Assembly (NCBI GenBank): GCA_026417415.1
Contig: JAOADG010000031.1
Location: 1 to 15,826, forward strand
Direction of reading: 5' to 3'
Length of the DNA stretch: 15,826 nt
From: a bacterium
GTDB taxonomy: Bacteria; Electryoneota; JAOADG01
Shown: piece after piece, positions 5,638 to 15,826 of the stretch
How the letters are laid out: every line of letters begins with the position of its first letter
Numbering within the stretch: position 1 is the stretch's first letter
Notes under the pieces: generated by a model
The model's database searches: none
Seen by the model: the letters and a program-made list of their open reading frames with translations, nothing else
What the model was told of the DNA's origin: nothing
Made by a program: the position numbers and the translations under genes

Positions 5638-5666
5638 TTGACATATTGTAATTCCTGATGTATATT
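5638..5666 (+). promoter_or_regulatory. strong sigma70-like promoter for the 5715-7025 operon
   Basis: TTGACA (5638-5643) and TATATT (5661-5666) are separated by exactly 17 bases, with a consensus -35. Predicted transcription begins near 5673, giving a leader of about 42 bases before the ATG at 5715. It is the best promoter match for the small-gene/decoration-protein operon. Confidence 0.7.
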
Positions 5667-5714
5667 ATTATTAGTCATTTGGTTATTAGTTATCAACATA
5701 AATGGGAGGTAATC

Positions 5715-6134
5715 ATGAGTGTTTATCAACAAGCAATACCCAATCCGATACAGAAACCCTCTAATGAACCAATAGAAATTGAAACCGATGATGCACAACT
5801 AGAAATTGAGTTTCCTCAGCTCCCTTCCGTGGTTCAAAAGCGTGTTGCGAATCGCAAAGAAGGCCATTCCAACCGCCGTTGCTGGAAAGGGTCACCAGTG
5901 TTTGCAACCCTTCTTCCGTGTGGGTTGTACACGGATACTTGGAAAATTTGTTATGCGGATGGTTGCTATCTCCGTGGAAAATGTGCTTGCTATCAAGGTG
6001 CATCGCCCAGAAGTGAAGTGATTTTGCCACTTCCACCTTATCTGGAAAGCATTAGCAGTTATTTGTTTTCGGATTATGGCAGAAGTTGGGAGGTTGAAGA
6101 GGAAGACGAAGAACCATTAGAGTCCGTCATTTGA
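5715..6134 (+). CDS. small six-cysteine protein, unknown function
   Basis: 139 residues, family not recognised. The open frame extends upstream to 5658, but GGGAGG (5704-5709) lies 5 bases before the ATG at 5715, which is taken as the start. The N-terminal 50 residues are Pro/Glu/Gln-rich and look disordered. Residues 54-95 hold six cysteines (56, 69, 79, 84, 90, 92), four of them in the tight pattern C-x4-C-x5-C-x-C, with many Tyr, Trp and Arg residues. The tail (about 125-136) is strongly acidic. No signal peptide or membrane segment is present, so a cytoplasmic location is expected and the cysteines would suit metal or Fe-S binding rather than disulfides; this is inference. It is the first gene of a three-gene operon (25 bases to the next gene) that ends in a phage decoration-like protein. 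It could be a structural partner, a cargo of a capsid-like shell, or unrelated. Confidence 0.7.
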   Translation: MSVYQQAIPNPIQKPSNEPIEIETDDAQLEIEFPQLPSVVQKRVANRKEGHSNRRCWKGSPVFATLLPCGLYTDTWKICYADGCYLRGKCACYQGASPRSEVILPLPPYLESISSYLFSDYGRSWEVEEEDEEPLESVI

Positions 6135-6158
6135 TACGAAAAAAAAGGATTTTTACTT

Positions 6159-6545
6159 ATGAACCCTACCCAAATCATTGACCTCGACCGATTGCTGGAT
6201 GGATTAAACTCTCCTGGCCAACACCCTCCTTCGCAAACCCCATCCAGCAATTTGGAGCCCCTGATCCAAGATAAATACGGAAATGGTGAACCGGTAGAGC
6301 AATCTTTGCAAAAGCTGGAGCAGTTGCTGCGTCTATTTCAAGATGAACTGATTGCCAAAGCCCGCTTGCTCAACTGGAGTGTAGAAGAGATCCAAGCCAT
6401 TCCATCCATTCGCAGCATAGAGCAATTGCAAGGGTTGAAAAATAGAATGAGTAGAGAGTTGATTCAACGATTTCAACCCAATACCATTTTATCAACCGAA
6501 GAATCCACGACTTATCAACATTTTAGAATTGAATACTATAGTTAA
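6159..6545 (+). CDS. small helical protein, unknown; possible capsid-assembly partner
   Basis: 128 residues, family not recognised. AAAGGA lies about 9 bases before the ATG. Residues 18-45 are Pro/Ser/Gln-rich and probably disordered. Residues 46-107 are predicted largely alpha-helical with heptad-like leucines (SLQKLEQLLRLFQDELIAKA, then a second helix near RSIEQLQGLKNRMSRELIQR). No signal peptide. It sits in the same operon as, and directly before, the decoration-like protein, in the position where phage head modules often encode a scaffold or assembly helper. That role is suggested only by position and helical character. The C-terminus (HFRIEYYS) does not match a known encapsulin cargo-loading peptide that I recognise. 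Confidence 0.65.
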   Translation: MNPTQIIDLDRLLDGLNSPGQHPPSQTPSSNLEPLIQDKYGNGEPVEQSLQKLEQLLRLFQDELIAKARLLNWSVEEIQAIPSIRSIEQLQGLKNRMSRELIQRFQPNTILSTEESTTYQHFRIEYYS

Positions 6546-6584
6546 TTTGTTTAATAAATGTAAACAATAGTAGGAGTTTATTGT

Positions 6585-7025
6585 ATGCCTTCGTCATTTC
6601 AATTTGACAACGAAAATATCGGAATTGGTCCGCTCCTTACCTGCCACGTCTCCACTGCTACCAATCAATCCTTTGTGCAAACCGATTTAGACGCCAATTA
6701 TACCGCTTGTGCCATCGTAGGCGACAATGTAATCGGCAAAGGTGCTGCCGGTGATCGCTTGTTTGGAAAAGTGGTCTGGTTAAGCCCTGAAAAAGTTGCA
6801 GGGACGATTGTGCCGATGATCTGCTCGGTACAAGCCCGTGGCGTCGCCCGTTTCAAATATGCCAACCCTGCACCCAACGTCGGTGATATGGTAGAACTGG
6901 CAGGCAATGGAAAAGTGCGTCAAGCATCTACTTCTGAAACGGTTCCCGCTGGTGGCGCACGCCATCGGGGTGTTGTGATCGCAAAAGATACCGTGGCTTC
7001 TACCGTGGATGTATGGTTAGGATAA
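6585..7025 (+). CDS. phage head-decoration/capsid-cement-like protein (DUF2190-like)
   Basis: 146 residues, Gly/Ala/Val-rich and predicted all-beta, no signal peptide, no transmembrane segment. The layout resembles small phage proteins encoded just before the major capsid gene. A central ARGVARFKYANPAPNVGDMV is followed by a strand with NGKVRQA, then RHRGVVIAKDTVASTVDVWL at the C-terminus, matching the way DUF2190-type head proteins end (GD..., G-V-A..., V-x-V-x-L). Known members decorate or cement HK97-type capsids. The start is supported by TAGGAG 9 bases upstream. It is the last gene of the operon, 39 bases after the helical protein and closed by a hairpin. The likely partner, the capsid protein, lies 2.35 kb downstream on the same strand, beyond a two-gene minus-strand insertion. 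The family call is by pattern and moderate in strength. Confidence 0.6.
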   Translation: MPSSFQFDNENIGIGPLLTCHVSTATNQSFVQTDLDANYTACAIVGDNVIGKGAAGDRLFGKVVWLSPEKVAGTIVPMICSVQARGVARFKYANPAPNVGDMVELAGNGKVRQASTSETVPAGGARHRGVVIAKDTVASTVDVWLG

Positions 7026-7041
7026 AGAAAAAATGGAACGA

Positions 7042-7086
7042 CAAACCCCTTCCACTCTTGTGTGTACAAGAATGCAAAGGGGTTTG
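7042..7086. terminator. hairpin between convergent operons
   Basis: A 10-bp outer stem (CAAACCCCTT, 7042-7051, with AAGGGGTTTG, 7077-7086) encloses a smaller stem CTTGT/ACAAG. It lies 16 bases after the stop of the decoration-like gene and 17 bases from the stop of the converging secreted-protein gene. No clear U-run follows on the plus strand; on the minus strand a T-rich stretch follows a few bases later, so it suits the minus-strand operon better. Confidence 0.55.
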
Positions 7087-7103
7087 GGATGTTTAGCAAA
7101 ATC

Positions 7104-7919
7104 CTATTTCAGATAGTGAATGACTCGTGAACTTTCGTGTTGATTCACTTGCAAACGCACAATGTACGTTCCACTGGACAATCCACTGGCATTCCATTGG
7201 ATTTGATGGACCCCTGCGGACATCCGTTCTTGTACTGGTGTGGCGACCAAACGACCTTGCAAATCATACACCTTCAAGCTAACCCAATCCTCTTTCGGTA
7301 AACTAAAGGAAAAGGTGGTGCTTGCATTAAAAGGATTAGGATAGTTGGGTAGCAGTTGAATCGCTTGCGGAGTTGCGGTCGTTGGGACATCGGGAGCATT
7401 CACGACTTGCATCACCGCACCGGTCATCATATTCAGGATGATGAGCAAATTTTCAAAATCATCATAAAATTCCACATACCACACCGAAGTGGTGGGATTT
7501 TCTTCATACACGGTAAGGTACATATCTACCGACGCATCGGGGTGTGTGGCTAAAAATGCATTTCCACCAGCATTGGCAGCATTGTTGTAAATGGTTGGGC
7601 TGTTCATAAAGTTGTTGGGGATAGTCGGTAAAAGGGAGAGATACTCACCGGGTAAATAGTTTGGAATGGATTGACCTGCCGTTACTAAAACCGCAAGACC
7701 AGTATCCAGTGATGGGGAATAGAAAATTACACTCCAAACCGCATAAACACCTGGTGAAATCATATCGTTGATACTGCTGATGGCTTTTAGTTGAAAGTCA
7801 CTGGAAATACTGTTGGCAAGCGTTGCAGCTGAACTACGGGCTTGTTGAGCGGTTAGTTGGGCAAACAGAGTAGATGCCATCACCAGCAAAACGAGAAAAG
7901 CAACAACCAAACGTCGCAT
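7104..7919 (-). CDS. secreted protein with T9SS C-terminal sorting domain
   Basis: 271 residues. Residues 1-20 are a clear signal peptide (basic MRR, hydrophobic core, cleavage after LFA). Residues 21-185 are an unrecognised module of small helices and strands; the stretch around 147-172 (WYVEFYDDFENLL then MMTGAVMQV) recalls PepSY-like folds, weakly. Residues 188-271 are a T9SS type-A/FlgD-like sorting domain: PNYPNPFN at 191-198, VSLKVYDLQGRLV, AGVHQIQWNASGLSSGTYIV, ending in HYLK. The product is therefore probably exported across the outer membrane and anchored or released. An AAGGAGG sequence directly precedes the ATG. It lies 45 bases after the LVIVD gene stop with no room for a promoter, so the two are cotranscribed. 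Confidence 0.8.
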   Translation of the reverse strand: MRRLVVAFLVLLVMASTLFAQLTAQQARSSAATLANSISSDFQLKAISSINDMISPGVYAVWSVIFYSPSLDTGLAVLVTAGQSIPNYLPGEYLSLLPTIPNNFMNSPTIYNNAANAGGNAFLATHPDASVDMYLTVYEENPTTSVWYVEFYDDFENLLIILNMMTGAVMQVVNAPDVPTTATPQAIQLLPNYPNPFNASTTFSFSLPKEDWVSLKVYDLQGRLVATPVQERMSAGVHQIQWNASGLSSGTYIVRLQVNQHESSRVIHYLK

Positions 7920-7964
7920 AAATCCTCCTTAGTGAATATTGAACCATTTGAATTCCGTAGGATC

Positions 7965-9260
7965 CTATTTCAACAAAACCATCGGAATCGTCTTCATCAA
8001 AGAACGTTGAGTAGAATGAGTGTTTGCCGATAACCTTAAAAAATACACTCCACTGCATAGATATTCGCTTTGAAAGGAAAAGCGATGGATACCTGCCTCT
8101 TGGAGTACATTGTGTAAGAAAGTACGTACCTGTCTGCCACTTGCATCGTAAAGCGTTAACGTGACCATCATCGGTTTGTATAACCGATACTGAATCTGTG
8201 TAGTACTATTGAATGGATTTGGAAAATTGGGATACAATTCAAAATCGTTTGGGATCGCCGTTTGATCCTGTGGATCATCTTCTATCCACAACGCAGGGGA
8301 TACATCATAAATGGACATCTGACCATTTTCTAACGTGTAACAGTAAGGTCCTATGGGCAAGGTTTTCCAAACATTGGGGATTGGGTTGTAATACCCAACA
8401 CGATGAATTGGATTGGGCTGCAGCAAGACATTCAAGACATGAAACCCACTACTATATCCTGCCACATAAGCGTACGAGTTGCTAACCGCAACATTCATCA
8501 AGCTCCCGACCGCAGTATAATTGTGCAACAGTTGTGGGACCGAAGGATTTGCAACAGAATATAGGTTTAGACCGTTATACCCACTTACAATGTAGAGCCG
8601 ATCGCCTTGGACATCAAGATTGAGTGCAGAATACTGGCCATTGTTGCCACCTAATTCAACCAAAGCGTTAGGATTACTGCAATCATAGATGCGAAACCCT
8701 GCCAAATTGTCGGCTACATAGAGACGGTTCCCTTGGACCTTCACAGCCACCGCATCACCAGTGGTGGGATACATTCCGACAACCGTGATGGAATCTAAAT
8801 TGGCAAGCGAAAGCACGGTCAGCGAAGACCACGCAGCCACGTAAGCATAAGGAGCAGAAATGGCAAGATCTAAAGCAATCCCAACATTTGGGATGGACTG
8901 TACCACCATCGGCTGAGAAGGTTGACTACAATTGACCACATCCATACCACTATCGTTTAAGGTCACGAATGCATATTGCTGATATAGCGCCAACCCATAG
9001 GAAGCCGCACTGCGTAGCGTGCATTGGCCCACGACAGTGATGCTGTCCAAATGGGTAAGATCAAGAATGCGAAACACACCGGCATCATCGGTTACATAAG
9101 CAAACGAACCTTGTACCGCCAAGCCCATCGGGTTATTTTCGCCAAACGAAAAACTTGCTATTCGTGAAATGTTCAAACTGTCTGACAGTGGTTGCGCCAC
9201 AAGGGATAGATGGATCATGCATACCGCAAGCCCAACGATAGTGAACCGAAACAACTTCAT
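7965..9260 (-). CDS. secreted seven-bladed LVIVD-repeat propeller with T9SS sorting domain
   Basis: 431 residues. The signal peptide spans residues 1-22 (cleavage after SLVA). Seven LVIVD-type repeats of about 40 residues follow, each with the pattern of a hydrophobic strand (LAVQG or NVAVS), a Y/F-A-Y-V-A/T strand and a G-x-x-I/V strand. Seven repeats suit a single seven-bladed beta-propeller. The repeats are far more divergent than those of the paralogues at 12084 and 14784. A T9SS sorting domain ends the protein (LYPNFPNPFNSTTQ; TLTLYDASGRQVR; SGVYFLRLSA; ending VLLK). LVIVD proteins are surface or secreted repeat proteins of mostly unknown ligand. GGAG lies 6 bases before the ATG. It is the first gene of the operon with the gene at 7104-7919, driven by the promoter at 9303-9331. 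Confidence 0.85.
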   Translation of the reverse strand: MKLFRFTIVGLAVCMIHLSLVAQPLSDSLNISRIASFSFGENNPMGLAVQGSFAYVTDDAGVFRILDLTHLDSITVVGQCTLRSAASYGLALYQQYAFVTLNDSGMDVVNCSQPSQPMVVQSIPNVGIALDLAISAPYAYVAAWSSLTVLSLANLDSITVVGMYPTTGDAVAVKVQGNRLYVADNLAGFRIYDCSNPNALVELGGNNGQYSALNLDVQGDRLYIVSGYNGLNLYSVANPSVPQLLHNYTAVGSLMNVAVSNSYAYVAGYSSGFHVLNVLLQPNPIHRVGYYNPIPNVWKTLPIGPYCYTLENGQMSIYDVSPALWIEDDPQDQTAIPNDFELYPNFPNPFNSTTQIQYRLYKPMMVTLTLYDASGRQVRTFLHNVLQEAGIHRFSFQSEYLCSGVYFLRLSANTHSTQRSLMKTIPMVLLK

Positions 9261-9302
9261 AAGTACTCCATAATTTTAGTGGTCACGTATCTTCTTAATC
9301 TA

Positions 9303-9331
9303 AAATTACAAGCATTCTTTCAATTTGTCAA
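9303..9331 (-). promoter_or_regulatory. sigma70-like promoter for the 9260-7104 operon
   Basis: On the minus strand, consensus TTGACA (9326-9331) and TAATTT (9303-9308) are 17 bases apart. The predicted transcript start lies near 9296, about 36 bases before the LVIVD gene start. The same 115-base gap must also hold the divergent capsid gene promoter, for which I see no good match. Confidence 0.65.
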
Positions 9332-9375
9332 GTGAAATGCAATCCAAAAAACATTTTTTAAAAGGAGAGGAATAG

Positions 9376-10449
9376 ATGTTTGATTTAACTAAAGCGACCT
9401 CGTTGAAACCGATTATTCGCGATGCATCGCGTAGTGGATCGGTTCAACTGTATCACGAAGCACAATCTCGTAATCTGTCGCTTAGTGAATACTTAGAGGA
9501 GTTGGATCCGTCCCCGCGCACTGCGGATGGCAAAATCACAGTACCGCTGGATGCTTTTGAACGTCAATTGGCGGTTCACGACATTCGGATTGGTGGGCGA
9601 AATGCGTTGTCCGTGGAGCAGTTTTTGATGTCCGATGCATCCATTTTGGCACCGGAATTTATCGTACGTGAAATCAAGTACGGAATGACGTTACGACAAG
9701 ATCCCAGTGAACTTTGTGGAGTCATGGTTTCTGAACAAGGTCCGGCAGTGAAACCGCTTTACTTTAAGACCGAAACAGTGCAGAAACCATTGGCAGAACA
9801 TGGCGAAGGTGCAGCGTTTCCGGTGGTGACGGTGGGGTATCGCGAAAAGTCGGCCTATATGGTGGATCGCGGACGGCAGTTTGATTTTCCCTATCGGGTC
9901 ATTCGCAATCAAAAGTTGACTGAGTTTCGCACCCTTTTGTGGGCGATTGGAGCACAGATGGCGGAAGACGAGGTCAATGAGATTTATCGTATTCTTAGAC
10001 GTGGTGATGGGACCAGTGGTGAACCGCCGAATGTGTTTAACGGGAATCCCGGTGAATTGACGTATGCCGATTTGGTGCATTTGACCTTATCCTTCAAAGT
10101 ACCGTCGCATATGACGCATCTGCTTTGTTCACCCGAAGATTTAGAAAAGATCCTCAATTTGCCCCAATTCCAAGACCCTATGGTATGGCGCGATGCTCAG
10201 TCCTTTAGTAAGGTGGGGGATTACCAAGCGCTTAGCCCCTTTGGGAGTAAATTGGTTCGGGTAGATGGAGCGGAAGTGACGGAAATGATCGCGATGGATA
10301 AACGTTTTGCCATTCGTGAAGCGGTGGCTCAGCCCCTGTTGGTAGAAGCAGAAAAAATTATCAATGCAAAAATGGAAAGTGCAGTGGTTTCCAAAGAATC
10401 GGTGTACACTTTAATGTTAGAAGATGCTGTGAAATTATGTGATTATTGA
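9376..10449 (+). CDS. HK97-fold phage-type major capsid protein
   Basis: 357 residues, in the size range of phage major capsid proteins and larger than classical encapsulins (about 260-310). No signal peptide. Residues 25-45 form an N-terminal arm with LSLSEYLEELDPS. Residues 74-104 include RNALSVEQFLMSD and ILAPEFIVREIKYGM, typical of the arm before the E-loop. EGAAFPVVTV at 144-153 is followed by the strand-and-spine-helix region at 160-209 (FDFPYRVIRNQKLTEF, then a long helix to RILRRGDG). An A-domain-like segment (TYADLVHLTLSF, LLCSPEDLEKIL, 229-260) and a C-terminal part (MIAMDKRFAIREAV, ending KESVYTLMLEDAVKL) complete the fold. The start has an AAGGAGAGG ribosome-binding site 5 bases upstream. 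It is transcribed alone and has its own terminator. No terminase, portal or protease gene accompanies it here, so phage remnant versus domesticated shell is open. Confidence 0.85.
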   Translation: MFDLTKATSLKPIIRDASRSGSVQLYHEAQSRNLSLSEYLEELDPSPRTADGKITVPLDAFERQLAVHDIRIGGRNALSVEQFLMSDASILAPEFIVREIKYGMTLRQDPSELCGVMVSEQGPAVKPLYFKTETVQKPLAEHGEGAAFPVVTVGYREKSAYMVDRGRQFDFPYRVIRNQKLTEFRTLLWAIGAQMAEDEVNEIYRILRRGDGTSGEPPNVFNGNPGELTYADLVHLTLSFKVPSHMTHLLCSPEDLEKILNLPQFQDPMVWRDAQSFSKVGDYQALSPFGSKLVRVDGAEVTEMIAMDKRFAIREAVAQPLLVEAEKIINAKMESAVVSKESVYTLMLEDAVKLCDY

Positions 10450-10537
10450 TCCTTTACGGTTTGACGCTTCAACCCTTAAGAAAATGATCCTGTTGATCCG
10501 ATTTTAGTTCTTTCATTTGCCTCCTATAACACGATTG

Positions 10538-10568
10538 GCCCCTTGTAACACGAGGGGCTTTTCGTTTA
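10538..10568 (+). terminator. rho-independent terminator of the capsid gene
   Basis: A 9-bp stem (GCCCCTTGT, 10538-10546, with ACGAGGGGC, 10550-10558, one G-U pair) closes a 3-base loop and is followed by TTTTCGTTT. It lies 88 bases after the capsid stop. It works in the plus direction only, since no T-run follows it on the minus strand. Confidence 0.85.
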
Positions 10569-12009: not shown

Positions 12010-12083
12010 ATTTCGGGATTATGGTCAATTCGTTGTTTTATTTTTATTGTTCGTTAATTCGTTTTGATGTTATGGAGGTTGTT

Positions 12084-14297
12084 ATGAGTCACGCAAGGCA
12101 AGCTTTGAGTTTTCAAATTTCTTATTGTAGGTGGTACACTTATTTTTTTGTCTTATGTTTTTTTTGGGCGGTACTCTCAGAGGTCTTTGCACAAGACAGT
12201 TTGAATGTTCGTTGTTTAGGGAGGATTTATCAAACCAATTCAAAAGATGTCGCAGTTTCAGGAAACTATGCCTATGTGGCCGATGGTAGTTCAGGTCTTC
12301 GCATTATTCATATCAGCAATCCCAGTAATCCCACTCAGGTAGGTTTTTGTAAAACTGCTGGCATGGCTGAAGGGGTCGTAATTTCTGGAAGTTATGCCTA
12401 TGTAGCGGCTGGGAGCGCAGGTCTTCGCATCATCCAAATCAGCAATCCCAATAGTCCTATAGAGATCGGATTTCTTGATACCCCCGGTTTTGCGCGTGAC
12501 GTAGTTGTTTCTGGAAATTATGCCTTTGTGGCGGATGGTAGTTCAGGCCTAAGAATAATCAATATCAGCAACCCCAATAATCCCATAGAAGTGGGCTCTT
12601 ATGCAACGCTTGACTGGGCTTTAAGTGTTGCTATTTCAGGACACTATGCCTATGTTGCAGCAGGTGATTCGGGGCTATGTATTGTCAATATTTTTAACCC
12701 TACAAATCCTACACCTGTGACTTATTTGAATACACTTGGCTATGCAAGGGGAGTAGCCGTATCTAATCAATATGCTTATGTTGCGGATGGGGATTATGGT
12801 CTTCGTATTATCCAAATCCGTAATCCCAGTAACCCCATAGAGATCGGTTTTTTTGATACCTTCGGTAGTGCAAATGGTGTTACTGTGGTGGGTAACTATG
12901 CTTTTTTGGCGGATTATGATGCAGGGCTTCGCATTATACAAATTACCAATCCGTATAGTCCCACAGAAATCGGCTTCTGTGACACCCCCGGTGAGGCGTG
13001 GAATGTTGCTGTTGCTAATAATTATGCTTATATTGCGGATGGTGAGTATGGCCTCCGCATCATCCAAGTGAGCGATCCCCTTTTCCCGACATGTGTTGGT
13101 TTTTATGAGGTAAACGGGTTAGCGGTGGGTGTTGCAGTTTCGGGAATCTATGCCTATGCAACGTATCTTGATGTAGGGATGCGTGTTATCCAAATAAGCG
13201 ATCCAAGTAACCCTACCCAAGTCGGCTTCTTTGATAGCAGCCGCTTTGCGAAAGACATCGTGATTTCAGGAAACTTTGCTTATGTTGCCGACTATAGTGA
13301 GGGTTTTCACATTATCCAAATTAGCGACCCTACCAATCCTGACCAAGTCGGTTCTTTGGATACTCCCGGCTTGGCATTTGGGGTGGCTGTGGCTGGAAAC
13401 TATGCCTATATTGCCGATTTTGATGCAGGTCTAAGAATTGTCAATGTTAACAATCCGCGCAATCCTTACCTGGTAAGTGTTTTTGATACCCCCGGTGAAG
13501 CGATGCGCGTTGCCGTTGAAGGAAATTATGCGTATGTTGCTGATGGTTATACCGGTCTTCGCATCATTAATATTAGCAATCCCAGTGGTCCGGTAGAAGT
13601 GGGTTTCTATGATACCCCCGGTTATGCTTGGGACGTTGCTGTTGCGGGTAATTATGCCTATGTAGCAGATGGGGAGTATGGTCTTCGCATCATCAATATC
13701 AATGCTCCTAATAGTCCCACAGAAGTCGGATTTTATGATACTCCCGGTTCTGCTTGGGACGTTGCTGTTGCAGGAAACTATGCTTATGTAGCGGATTATG
13801 AAAGTGGCTTACGCATTATCTATATCGGTAACCCGAACAATCCCACACTGGTTGGCTACTACGATACTCCCGATGTAGCTTGGGGTGTTGCGGTTTCTGG
13901 GAATCGTGCGGATCTGGCGGCAAATCAAGAGTTTGGGATCTACGACTGCTCCCAAGCGCTCCCAGTGATTGAGCGCGATCCCCATTTCAATGGGGACAAC
14001 CTCCCCAGCGAGTACTCCCTCTTGCAAAATTATCCAAACCCGTTTAACAACGAAACCAAGATCCGTTACACGCTCCCACGCACTTCCGTCGTCCATCTTA
14101 CACTCTACGACATGCAAGGTCGTGAGCTGCGCACGCTGATCCGTGGTCTTACGCAGGATGCGGGTCTCTACACCGTTACTCTCAACGGAAGCGGTTTATC
14201 CAGTGGGGTCTATCTGGTGAAACTGAATGCTGCTGCAACCAGCACCCTCACGCCCACCCTCTTCACCACAAGCAGAAAGGTGGTGCTACTCAAGTAA
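12084..14297 (+). CDS. secreted 14-repeat LVIVD double-propeller protein with T9SS sorting domain
   Basis: 737 residues. ATGs at 12021 and 12072 are in frame, but GGAGG (12074-12078) lies 5 bases before the ATG at 12084, which is chosen. A long hydrophobic signal peptide ends after residue 36 (VFA, then QDS). Residues 56-601 are 13 LVIVD-type repeats of exactly 42 residues, with consensus [22 protein letters not shown] and VGFYDTPG; a shortened 14th follows at about 602-622 (IYDCS end). The mature N-terminus ([10 protein letters not shown]) supplies the strand missing from the last repeat, as in propeller 'velcro' closure. Fourteen units suit two seven-bladed propellers; this fold is inference. 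Residues about 643-737 are a T9SS sorting domain ([39 protein letters not shown], end VVLLK). The protein is probably exported to the cell surface; its ligand is unknown. The gene is monocistronic. Confidence 0.9.
12249..13946 (+). repeat. 126-bp coding tandem repeats, 13 units plus a partial 14th
   Basis: The GGAAACTATG-like core recurs in strict register: the first (12261) and last (13899) cores are 1638 bases apart, exactly 13 times 126. No insertion or deletion has accumulated, although codons have drifted. Units 11-13 are closest to the consensus shared with the downstream paralogue; units 4-9 are the most diverged. Confidence 0.9.
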
Positions 14298-14732: not shown

Positions 14733-14783
14733 CTTTGATTCTACAATGTGTTGTTTCTTAATCTTGAAAATACGGAGGCTAAA

Positions 14784-15826
14784 ATGAAACAACATCACTA
14801 TCCACACAACGCATCAATTTTATTTCGCACATCATTTTTTTCTTTAATCACGCTCATTTGTTTTGTGATATTCCTCCCCGAGTCCTTTGCACAAGACAGT
14901 TTGAATGTTCGTTGTTTGGGACGTCTTTCGTGTATGAATTCAAAAGATGTCGCAGTTTCTGGAAACTATGCCTATGTGGCGGATTGGCTGTATGGTCTTC
15001 GCATCATTAATATCAGCAATCCCAGTAGTCCTACCCAAGTGGGTTTCTATGATACACCCGGTGAAGCTTGGGGTGTAGCCGTTTCAGGAAACTATGCCTA
15101 TGTGGCGGATGATGAAGCAGGTCTTCGCATCATCAACATCAGCAATCCCAGTAATCCGGTAGAAGTGGGTTTCTGTGTTACCTCTGGTTATGTTTATCGT
15201 GTTGCGGTTTCAGGAAACTATGCCTATGTTGCGGATTGGCCGTATGGTCTTCGCATCATTAATATTAGCAATCCCAGTAATCCCACTCAAGTGGGTTTCT
15301 ATGATACCCCCGGTGAAGCTTGTGGTGTTGCCGTTTCAGGAAACTATGCCTATGTTGCGGATGGTGATGCAGGTCTTCGCATCATCCATATTAGCAATCC
15401 CAGTAGTCCGGTAGAAGTGGGTTTCTATGATACCCCCGGTTCTGCTCATGGTGTTGCGGTTTCAGGAAACTATGCCTATGTAGCTGATTATAATGCAGGT
15501 CTTCGCATCATCCATATTAGCAATCCCAGTAATCCGGTAGAAGTGGGTTTCTATGATACACCTGGTTCTGCTTGGGGTGTTGCGGTTTCTGGAAACTATA
15601 CCTATGTTGCGGATGATTATGCAGGTCTTCGCATCATCAATATTAACAATCCCAGTAGTCCGGTAGAAGTGGGTTTCTATAATACCCCCGGTTCTGCTCA
15701 TGGTGTTGCTGTTTCAGGAAACTATGCCTATGTAGCGGATGATTATGCAGGTCTTCGCATCATCGATATTAACAATCCCAGTAGTCCGGTAGAAGTGGGT
15801 TTCTATAATACCCCCGGTTCTGCTCA
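14784..15826 (+). CDS. secreted LVIVD-repeat protein, 3' end outside the window
   Basis: The open frame runs without a stop from the ATG at 14784 to the window edge (347 complete codons). GGAGG (14774-14778) lies 5 bases before the start. The signal peptide ends after residue 36 (ESFA, then QDS), at the same residue as in the upstream paralogue although its sequence differs. From residue 56 the protein consists of identical-length 42-residue LVIVD units ([36 protein letters not shown]); six are complete and a seventh is cut 4 bases short of completion. The missing end would be expected to carry more repeats and a T9SS sorting domain as in the paralogue; this is inference. The repeats are much more alike at the DNA level than in the upstream gene, suggesting recent expansion. 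Probably a surface-exported propeller; ligand unknown. Confidence 0.85.
14949..15826 (+). repeat. near-identical 126-bp tandem repeat array, cut by the window edge
   Basis: Repeat cores (GGAAACTAT) occur at 14961, 15087, 15213, 15339, 15465, 15591 and 15717, exactly 126 bases apart each time. Long stretches, such as the segment coding VEVGFY and GLRII, are identical between most units; differences cluster at a few codons (for example WLYG, DEAG, GDAG, YNAG and DYAG at the same loop). High identity in register makes copy-number change and assembly collapse likely. Confidence 0.95.

Follow-up and report, generated by a model that had tools for sequence, protein, structure and literature searches.

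The window analyzed here, a stretch of 15,826 bp from a bacterium of the phylum Electryoneota, is the entire contig C18 of its source genome (G000; 2.2 Mb in 40 contigs, rated 100% complete) and carries the genes for a major capsid protein (MCP) and a decoration-like protein (DEC), two members of a phage-derived head and packaging module. The original prediction made from this DNA, that the two shell genes (9376-10449 and 6585-7025) are intact and have good ribosome-binding sites, was borne out: both frames are intact and are matched by PHROGs profiles, with AAAAGGAG preceding the MCP ATG and AGTAGGAG preceding the decoration open reading frame (ORF). The absence from the window of terminase, portal, protease, tail and integrase genes likewise stood, none being found on re-analysis with Pfam and PHROGs; since the window is a complete contig, the sequence directly outside it is unreadable. 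The further claim that all other neighbors are exported proteins stood only in part: exported type IX secretion system (T9SS)-type neighbors are present, but the ORFs at 5658-6134 and 6159-6545 are module genes whose products are not exported. The features are as follows:

9376..10449, plus strand: MCP, an HK97-type major capsid protein of 357 aa with an N-terminal helical region of ~105 residues (by PHROG 3922 and fold)
6585..7025, plus strand: DEC, a capsid decoration/cement-like protein of 146 aa (PHROG 4588, virion structural protein, E 2e-5)
6159..6545, plus strand: COIL, a small, non-exported helical/coiled-coil protein, directly upstream of DEC and kept beside the module in relatives
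5658..6134, plus strand: c10, a cysteine-rich, non-exported ORF with a likely start at ATG 5715, with conserved counterparts preceding the module in five further genomes (G001, G006, G010, G011, G023)
5638..5666, plus strand: promoter-like site TTGACA-17-TATATT upstream of the c10-COIL-DEC run, agreeing at 11/12 consensus positions
10537..10559, plus strand: terminator-like stem of 10 pairs after MCP
7104..9260, minus strand: two exported proteins with T9SS C-terminal sorting domains, one of them an LVIVD propeller, outside the module (Pfam Por_Secre_tail and LVIVD; gene maps of relatives)

By family profile and predicted fold, the MCP is an HK97-type major capsid protein. It matches the PHROG 3922 major head protein (E 5e-48) and Pfam Phage_capsid_4 (E 4e-6), which is its sole Pfam match at E up to 1, with no match to an encapsulin family. 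Its AlphaFold2 model, of moderate confidence (pLDDT 61.6), aligns in VIA-align to HK97, encapsulin and RcGTA capsids with Z 5.8-7.3; the comparison with predicted structures that had been proposed for this protein thus recovered the fold, but HK97 capsids and encapsulins are indistinguishable by it. As encapsulins share the HK97 fold, this similarity does not discriminate between the two. Foldseek by itself did not place the fold (best E 0.17), and profile searches of PDB sequences with the MCP, protease, decoration and portal proteins returned no relative. Nine DEC homologs adjoin the MCP in relatives (49-62% identity), and of 20 fetched Electryoneota genomes all but G011, where the exception lies near a contig end, have a profile hidden Markov model match to DEC beside the MCP (19/20). 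COIL is a putative scaffold, to judge from its position in the order protease-coil-decoration-MCP seen in related phages and in a second phylum (that of genome G046), while c10 might be a regulator or an assembly factor. In eight genomes (G004, G006, G009, G010, G011, G018, G022, G023), an XRE-type regulator or a pair of them is encoded divergently upstream of the module and may control it.

The decoration and MCP genes of the window are separated by the two minus-strand T9SS-type genes; in G001, of the same family as G000, decoration, MCP, c4 and connector genes are contiguous. Within and around the module lie long runs of LVIVD propeller proteins that are exported and bear T9SS sorting domains (window positions 7965-9260, 12021-14297 and 14748-15826; G006:C16:84-130 kb). 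The promoter scan of the window is statistically weak (13 sites versus 9.9 +/- 2.8 in shuffles), and the promoter and terminator totals barely exceed the shuffled expectation. ARAGORN found no tRNA in the window, the Rfam scan gave no match and PADLOC detected no defense system.

Packaging and maturation genes on other contigs

The original prediction had allowed that the shell genes might be a fragment of a larger element outside the window. A larger element does exist, but it is dispersed over several contigs and is no ordinary prophage: in G000 the complete gene set occupies three contigs, with COIL, DEC and MCP on C18, the connector, amidase, portal, protease and c4 on C17 and the terminase on C36. 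Terminase and portal genes, for which an inspection of the flanks had been suggested, are therefore present in G000, on C36 and C17 rather than adjoining the window. The large terminase (C36:17397-18725) occurs in one copy, and the terminase, portal, connector and c8 genes are each a single intact open frame. In a relative, PHROGs profiles identify the large terminase subunit with E 2.5e-34 and the portal with E 6.5e-32; in G000 itself they confirm both proteins. The Walker B motif (WDEMAF) and the nuclease aspartates (IDFGY, DPAG, DH..DALRY) of the terminase are invariant, including in G000. Its P-loop region in Electryoneota is of a KSRQ type without the usual GK(S/T), which we take to resemble the deviant Walker A of lambda gpA, the terminase activity being a predicted one.

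The protein c8 has no Pfam match and matches only an unnamed PHROG. Its AlphaFold2 model (pLDDT 81) retrieves T4 gp21 in Foldseek (probability 1.00, E 3.8e-3) and aligns to it in VIA-align with Z 12.4 (5jbl; 3.6 A over 149 residues), the next-best structural matches being the herpesvirus assemblins. On the strength of this model, c8 is identified as a prohead protease of the T4 gp21/assemblin type. H83, S138 and E183 are invariant in 21 sequences including those from other phyla (one row being cut at its start); their order, His, Ser, Glu, is that expected of HK97-type proteases, and by analogy with the S78/HK97-type pattern they would form the catalytic triad. A Cys/His cluster between the Ser and the Glu is likewise invariant and might bind zinc. 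A short secreted beta-rich protein is encoded after the protease gene in six genomes (G002, G004, G010, G020, G021, G028), an exported protein being unusual in a phage-derived cluster.

Lysis-type genes lie close by: an Amidase_2 protein is encoded at C17:10181-10636 (E 5e-11), and XhlA-like small proteins occur near the module in relatives (E 9e-4, below the Pfam cut-off). At C17:496-1886 (L115), the module gene c4 is adjoined by genes that look like cas2 and cas1.

Conservation, inheritance and phage relatives of the module

The MCP was searched for in 60 relatives (same-phylum set n=39; other phyla n=22). Scans of genome and viral contigs with the single MCP sequence gave no match, and alignment queries were needed. 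One homolog was recovered in 34/39 same-phylum genomes (50-66% identity) and in just 1/22 genomes of other phyla. The remaining core genes are distributed similarly across the 39 genomes, as single, full-length and nearly always intact copies: terminase in 33, portal in 33, protease in 35 and connector in 35, besides the MCP in 34. Comparison of neighborhoods of up to 20 kb from 19 genomes of the phylum and from G046 of another phylum revealed a conserved order, coil-decoration-MCP-c4-connector-terminase-portal-c8, into which host genes, often those of T9SS propeller proteins, are inserted to varying degrees. Genomes in which host genes stretch the module to 54 kb (G006) or 28 kb (G003) still keep this order.

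In maximum-likelihood trees of 30 MCPs and 32 terminases, every represented family with at least two genomes forms one clade. The eight families require 7 label changes, the minimum possible, against ~20 in shuffles, 0/200 of which were as low. The dN/dS ratios (nonsynonymous to synonymous substitution, by NG86) for the MCP, terminase and portal are below 1 in all pairs, mostly 0.07-0.2 with a maximum of 0.32, these values being upper bounds only where dS is saturated. Hence, the module, its genes intact and single-copy with their catalytic residues retained, is vertically inherited, under purifying selection and dispersed among host genes. The domestication proposed in the original prediction, for which synteny and selection across relatives had been named as a check, is thereby strongly supported.

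The module extends to further phyla. The portal is present in single copy in 87/98 genomes of the G046 phylum (in two of these as two contig pieces) and, almost always in single copy, in 12/14 genomes of the G278 phylum and 5/6 of the G189 phylum; a broad sample yielded it in 7/174 outside-phylum genomes, some of them from those same three phyla. A named Zixiibacteriota locus (L152) nests in the MCP clade of the G046 phylum and shares its flanks, by which sequence evidence this phylum is identified as Zixibacteria-type. Here the order is portal-terminase-protease-holin-like-coil-decoration-MCP-propeller-connector, and ~13 of the 20 loci fetched adjoin the same host genes, encoding a PD-(D/E)XK nuclease, a TPR lipoprotein and a secreted protein (each flank family being found in 13 loci, with L152 counted). 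The conserved propeller-like protein of ~470 residues, which lacks a signal peptide and replaces c4 between the MCP and the connector (L152, L160, L174-L190), is possibly a head-attached adhesion protein. The Zixibacteria-type terminase has a canonical P-loop and is unmatched by the Electryoneota terminase profile, which suggests that the terminase was exchanged in one of the lines.

Many IMG/VR contigs show the order portal-protease-(coil)-decoration-MCP, as in the module, and two phage contigs among them (L198 and L195) run on into sheath and tape-measure genes, suggesting that the ancestor was a tailed phage. An MCP tree of 119 rows supports an Electryoneota clade and a Zixibacteria-type clade at 99 each and their union at 100, and it places one phage contig, L194, as the sister of Electryoneota; with this placement, a single capture and two captures from close relatives are both conceivable. 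Two unverified human-gut phage scaffolds (L161 and L162; MT835508 and MT836604) carry terminase-portal-protease-MCP relatives of the module. Five IMG/VR contigs of 6-10 kb catalogued as viral (L155-L159) carry the module itself, with a portal identity of 48-52%, and are probably misfiled chromosome fragments of Electryoneota-type bacteria.

Interpretation of the module and rival explanations

Taken together, these observations make it probable that the capsid and decoration genes of the window belong to a gene transfer agent (GTA)-like viriform, i.e. a head and packaging module of a tailed phage that was captured and then vertically inherited. The module is most likely a previously unreported GTA that packs host DNA into virus-like heads. 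Going by the established roles of the gene families, the MCP and decoration protein would form the shell on the portal, over the coiled-coil scaffold; maturation of the prohead would fall to the gp21-like protease, its filling with fragments of host DNA to the terminase and the closing of the filled head to the connector. The holin-like protein and the amidase, encoded near other module genes, might then lyse the producer. Since the searches turned up no marker of a long tail, delivery would depend on a short or unrecognized tail, or else on the uptake of released DNA.

Several observations weigh against this interpretation. The viriform is known here from its genes, from which we infer particles, packaged DNA and transfer alike, and all characterized GTAs have, to our knowledge, tails. 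Tape measure (PF10145) and sheath (PF04984), the two tail families searched, gave no match in G000 and only sporadic ones across the phylum, and a small terminase was not identified. The core genes are missing in G013 (97% complete) and G036, and the MCP gene of G023 (C85:43104-44153) is split into two ORFs by one in-frame TGA, reflecting a pseudogene, an assembly error or recoding.

Among the alternatives, a domesticated DNA-packing head with another role, such as DNA release or storage, the supply of DNA as a nutrient or for biofilms, or a PBSX-like particle without DNA delivery, is unlikely though worth keeping in view: the head and packaging genes are conserved, yet no tape-measure or sheath gene was found in G000, and lysis-type genes lie nearby. 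Against this, positive evidence for any such role is absent, and short tails would escape the two families searched. A tailocin-like killing role would be unlikely without a tail. Persistence of ancient phage genes kept one by one for unrelated cellular functions, with their shared order as a relic, would fit the distribution of the G000 genes over at least three contigs with unrelated neighbors, owing to which they need not be co-expressed; that the whole functional set is retained together, with order and orientation preserved despite intervening host genes, renders it very improbable. An ordinary or decaying prophage, or repeated reinvasion by related prophages, could draw on the tailed phages that carry the same head module and on the sister position of L194 to the Electryoneota MCPs. 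It was dropped on the trees, copy number and shared flanks: near-universal single copies in the phylum, congruence with host families, purifying selection, host flanks shared in the second phylum, genes spread over contigs and the lack of an integrase or att site in the window leave it little chance.

The original prediction favored an encapsulin-like compartment built from a phage capsid and a cement protein with no DNA packaging, as would suit shell genes that stand alone within the window and an MCP model that fits encapsulins and HK97 alike. This was abandoned once the packaging genes were found: in G000 the terminase has retained its Walker B motif and nuclease aspartates intact, and the genome also encodes a portal, a connector and a protein with the fold of a prohead protease. 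The co-conservation of these genes, intact, with the MCP in the same genomes largely refutes such a compartment, and with no encapsulin family match and no cargo gene it is now highly implausible.

Relation to described gene transfer agents and implications

A GTA has been defined by five properties: caudoviricete-derived particle proteins, endogenized genes, vertical inheritance, the packaging of mostly random host DNA and a gene set that is not fully packageable (PMC9662315). As to homology with caudoviricete proteins, the MCP, terminase and portal are identified by PHROGs and the protease by its fold. Endogenization, often at multiple loci, is seen in G000 (C17, C18 and C36) and in the spread over 54 kb of G006, and mostly vertical inheritance with co-diversification in the MCP and terminase trees that track host families and in the flanks shared within the second phylum. 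The other two properties need particles, and with three of the five in evidence we speak of "GTA-like" rather than "GTA"; with the module dispersed over several loci, the whole gene set is unlikely to be packaged as one piece.

Formally classified GTAs come only from Alphaproteobacteria and Brachyspira; evidence from Faecalibacterium is recent (PMC9662315, PMC12946183). With RcGTA (Rhodogtaviriformidae), BaGTA (Bartogtaviriformidae) and BhGTA (Brachygtaviriformidae) the module shares a caudoviricete-derived head, terminase and portal, endogenization at several loci, vertical inheritance and purifying selection (PMC9662315). Unlike these, it is hosted by Electryoneota and three other phyla, none of them among the described hosts as far as these are named; it has a T4 gp21-like protease bearing an inserted Cys/His cluster and no recognized tail module; and its locus is interrupted by host genes over tens of kilobases. 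FpGTA of Faecalibacterium, a GTA-like element outside Alphaproteobacteria with separate operons and a reported podovirus-like form, comes closest, as compared by description, to being a precedent for GTAs that lack long tails (PMC12946183); its host phylum differs from those of the module. Tailed phages with PHROG 3922 capsids (IMG/VR L193-L198; the human-gut Bacteriophage sp. MT835508) have the same portal-protease-coil-decoration-MCP order. Those read (L198 and L195) go on to encode a sheath and a tape measure; as a group these phages lack vertical fixation, and their MCPs are only ~22-34% identical to that of the window. Encapsulins share the HK97 fold but come without a packaging apparatus, whereas the module co-conserves the terminase, portal, connector and protease. 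The open-access literature, to which our search was confined with subscription papers and preprints outside it, yielded no earlier report of this system and no paper joining gene transfer agents with Electryoneota or Zixibacteria; PMC10439189, which names Electryoneota, makes no mention of phage, virus or capsid.

That a head-only (tailless or short-tailed) GTA had become fixed in each of at least four related phyla before they radiated, possibly already in their common ancestor, is a tentative and rather doubtful proposition. If true, the system would rank among the viriforms with the deepest inheritance and, in these lineages, would be the first whose DNA heads are released by lysis and have no long tail. 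For viral catalogues, the L155-L159 contigs are a caution that fragments of the module locus are filed as viral genomes. More generally, the module offers a natural test of whether a GTA requires a tail. If a GTA-like system is indeed near-universal in Electryoneota and three further phyla, host-controlled DNA packaging would be far older and wider than thought, and it would provide a route of gene exchange in lineages without cultured genetics.

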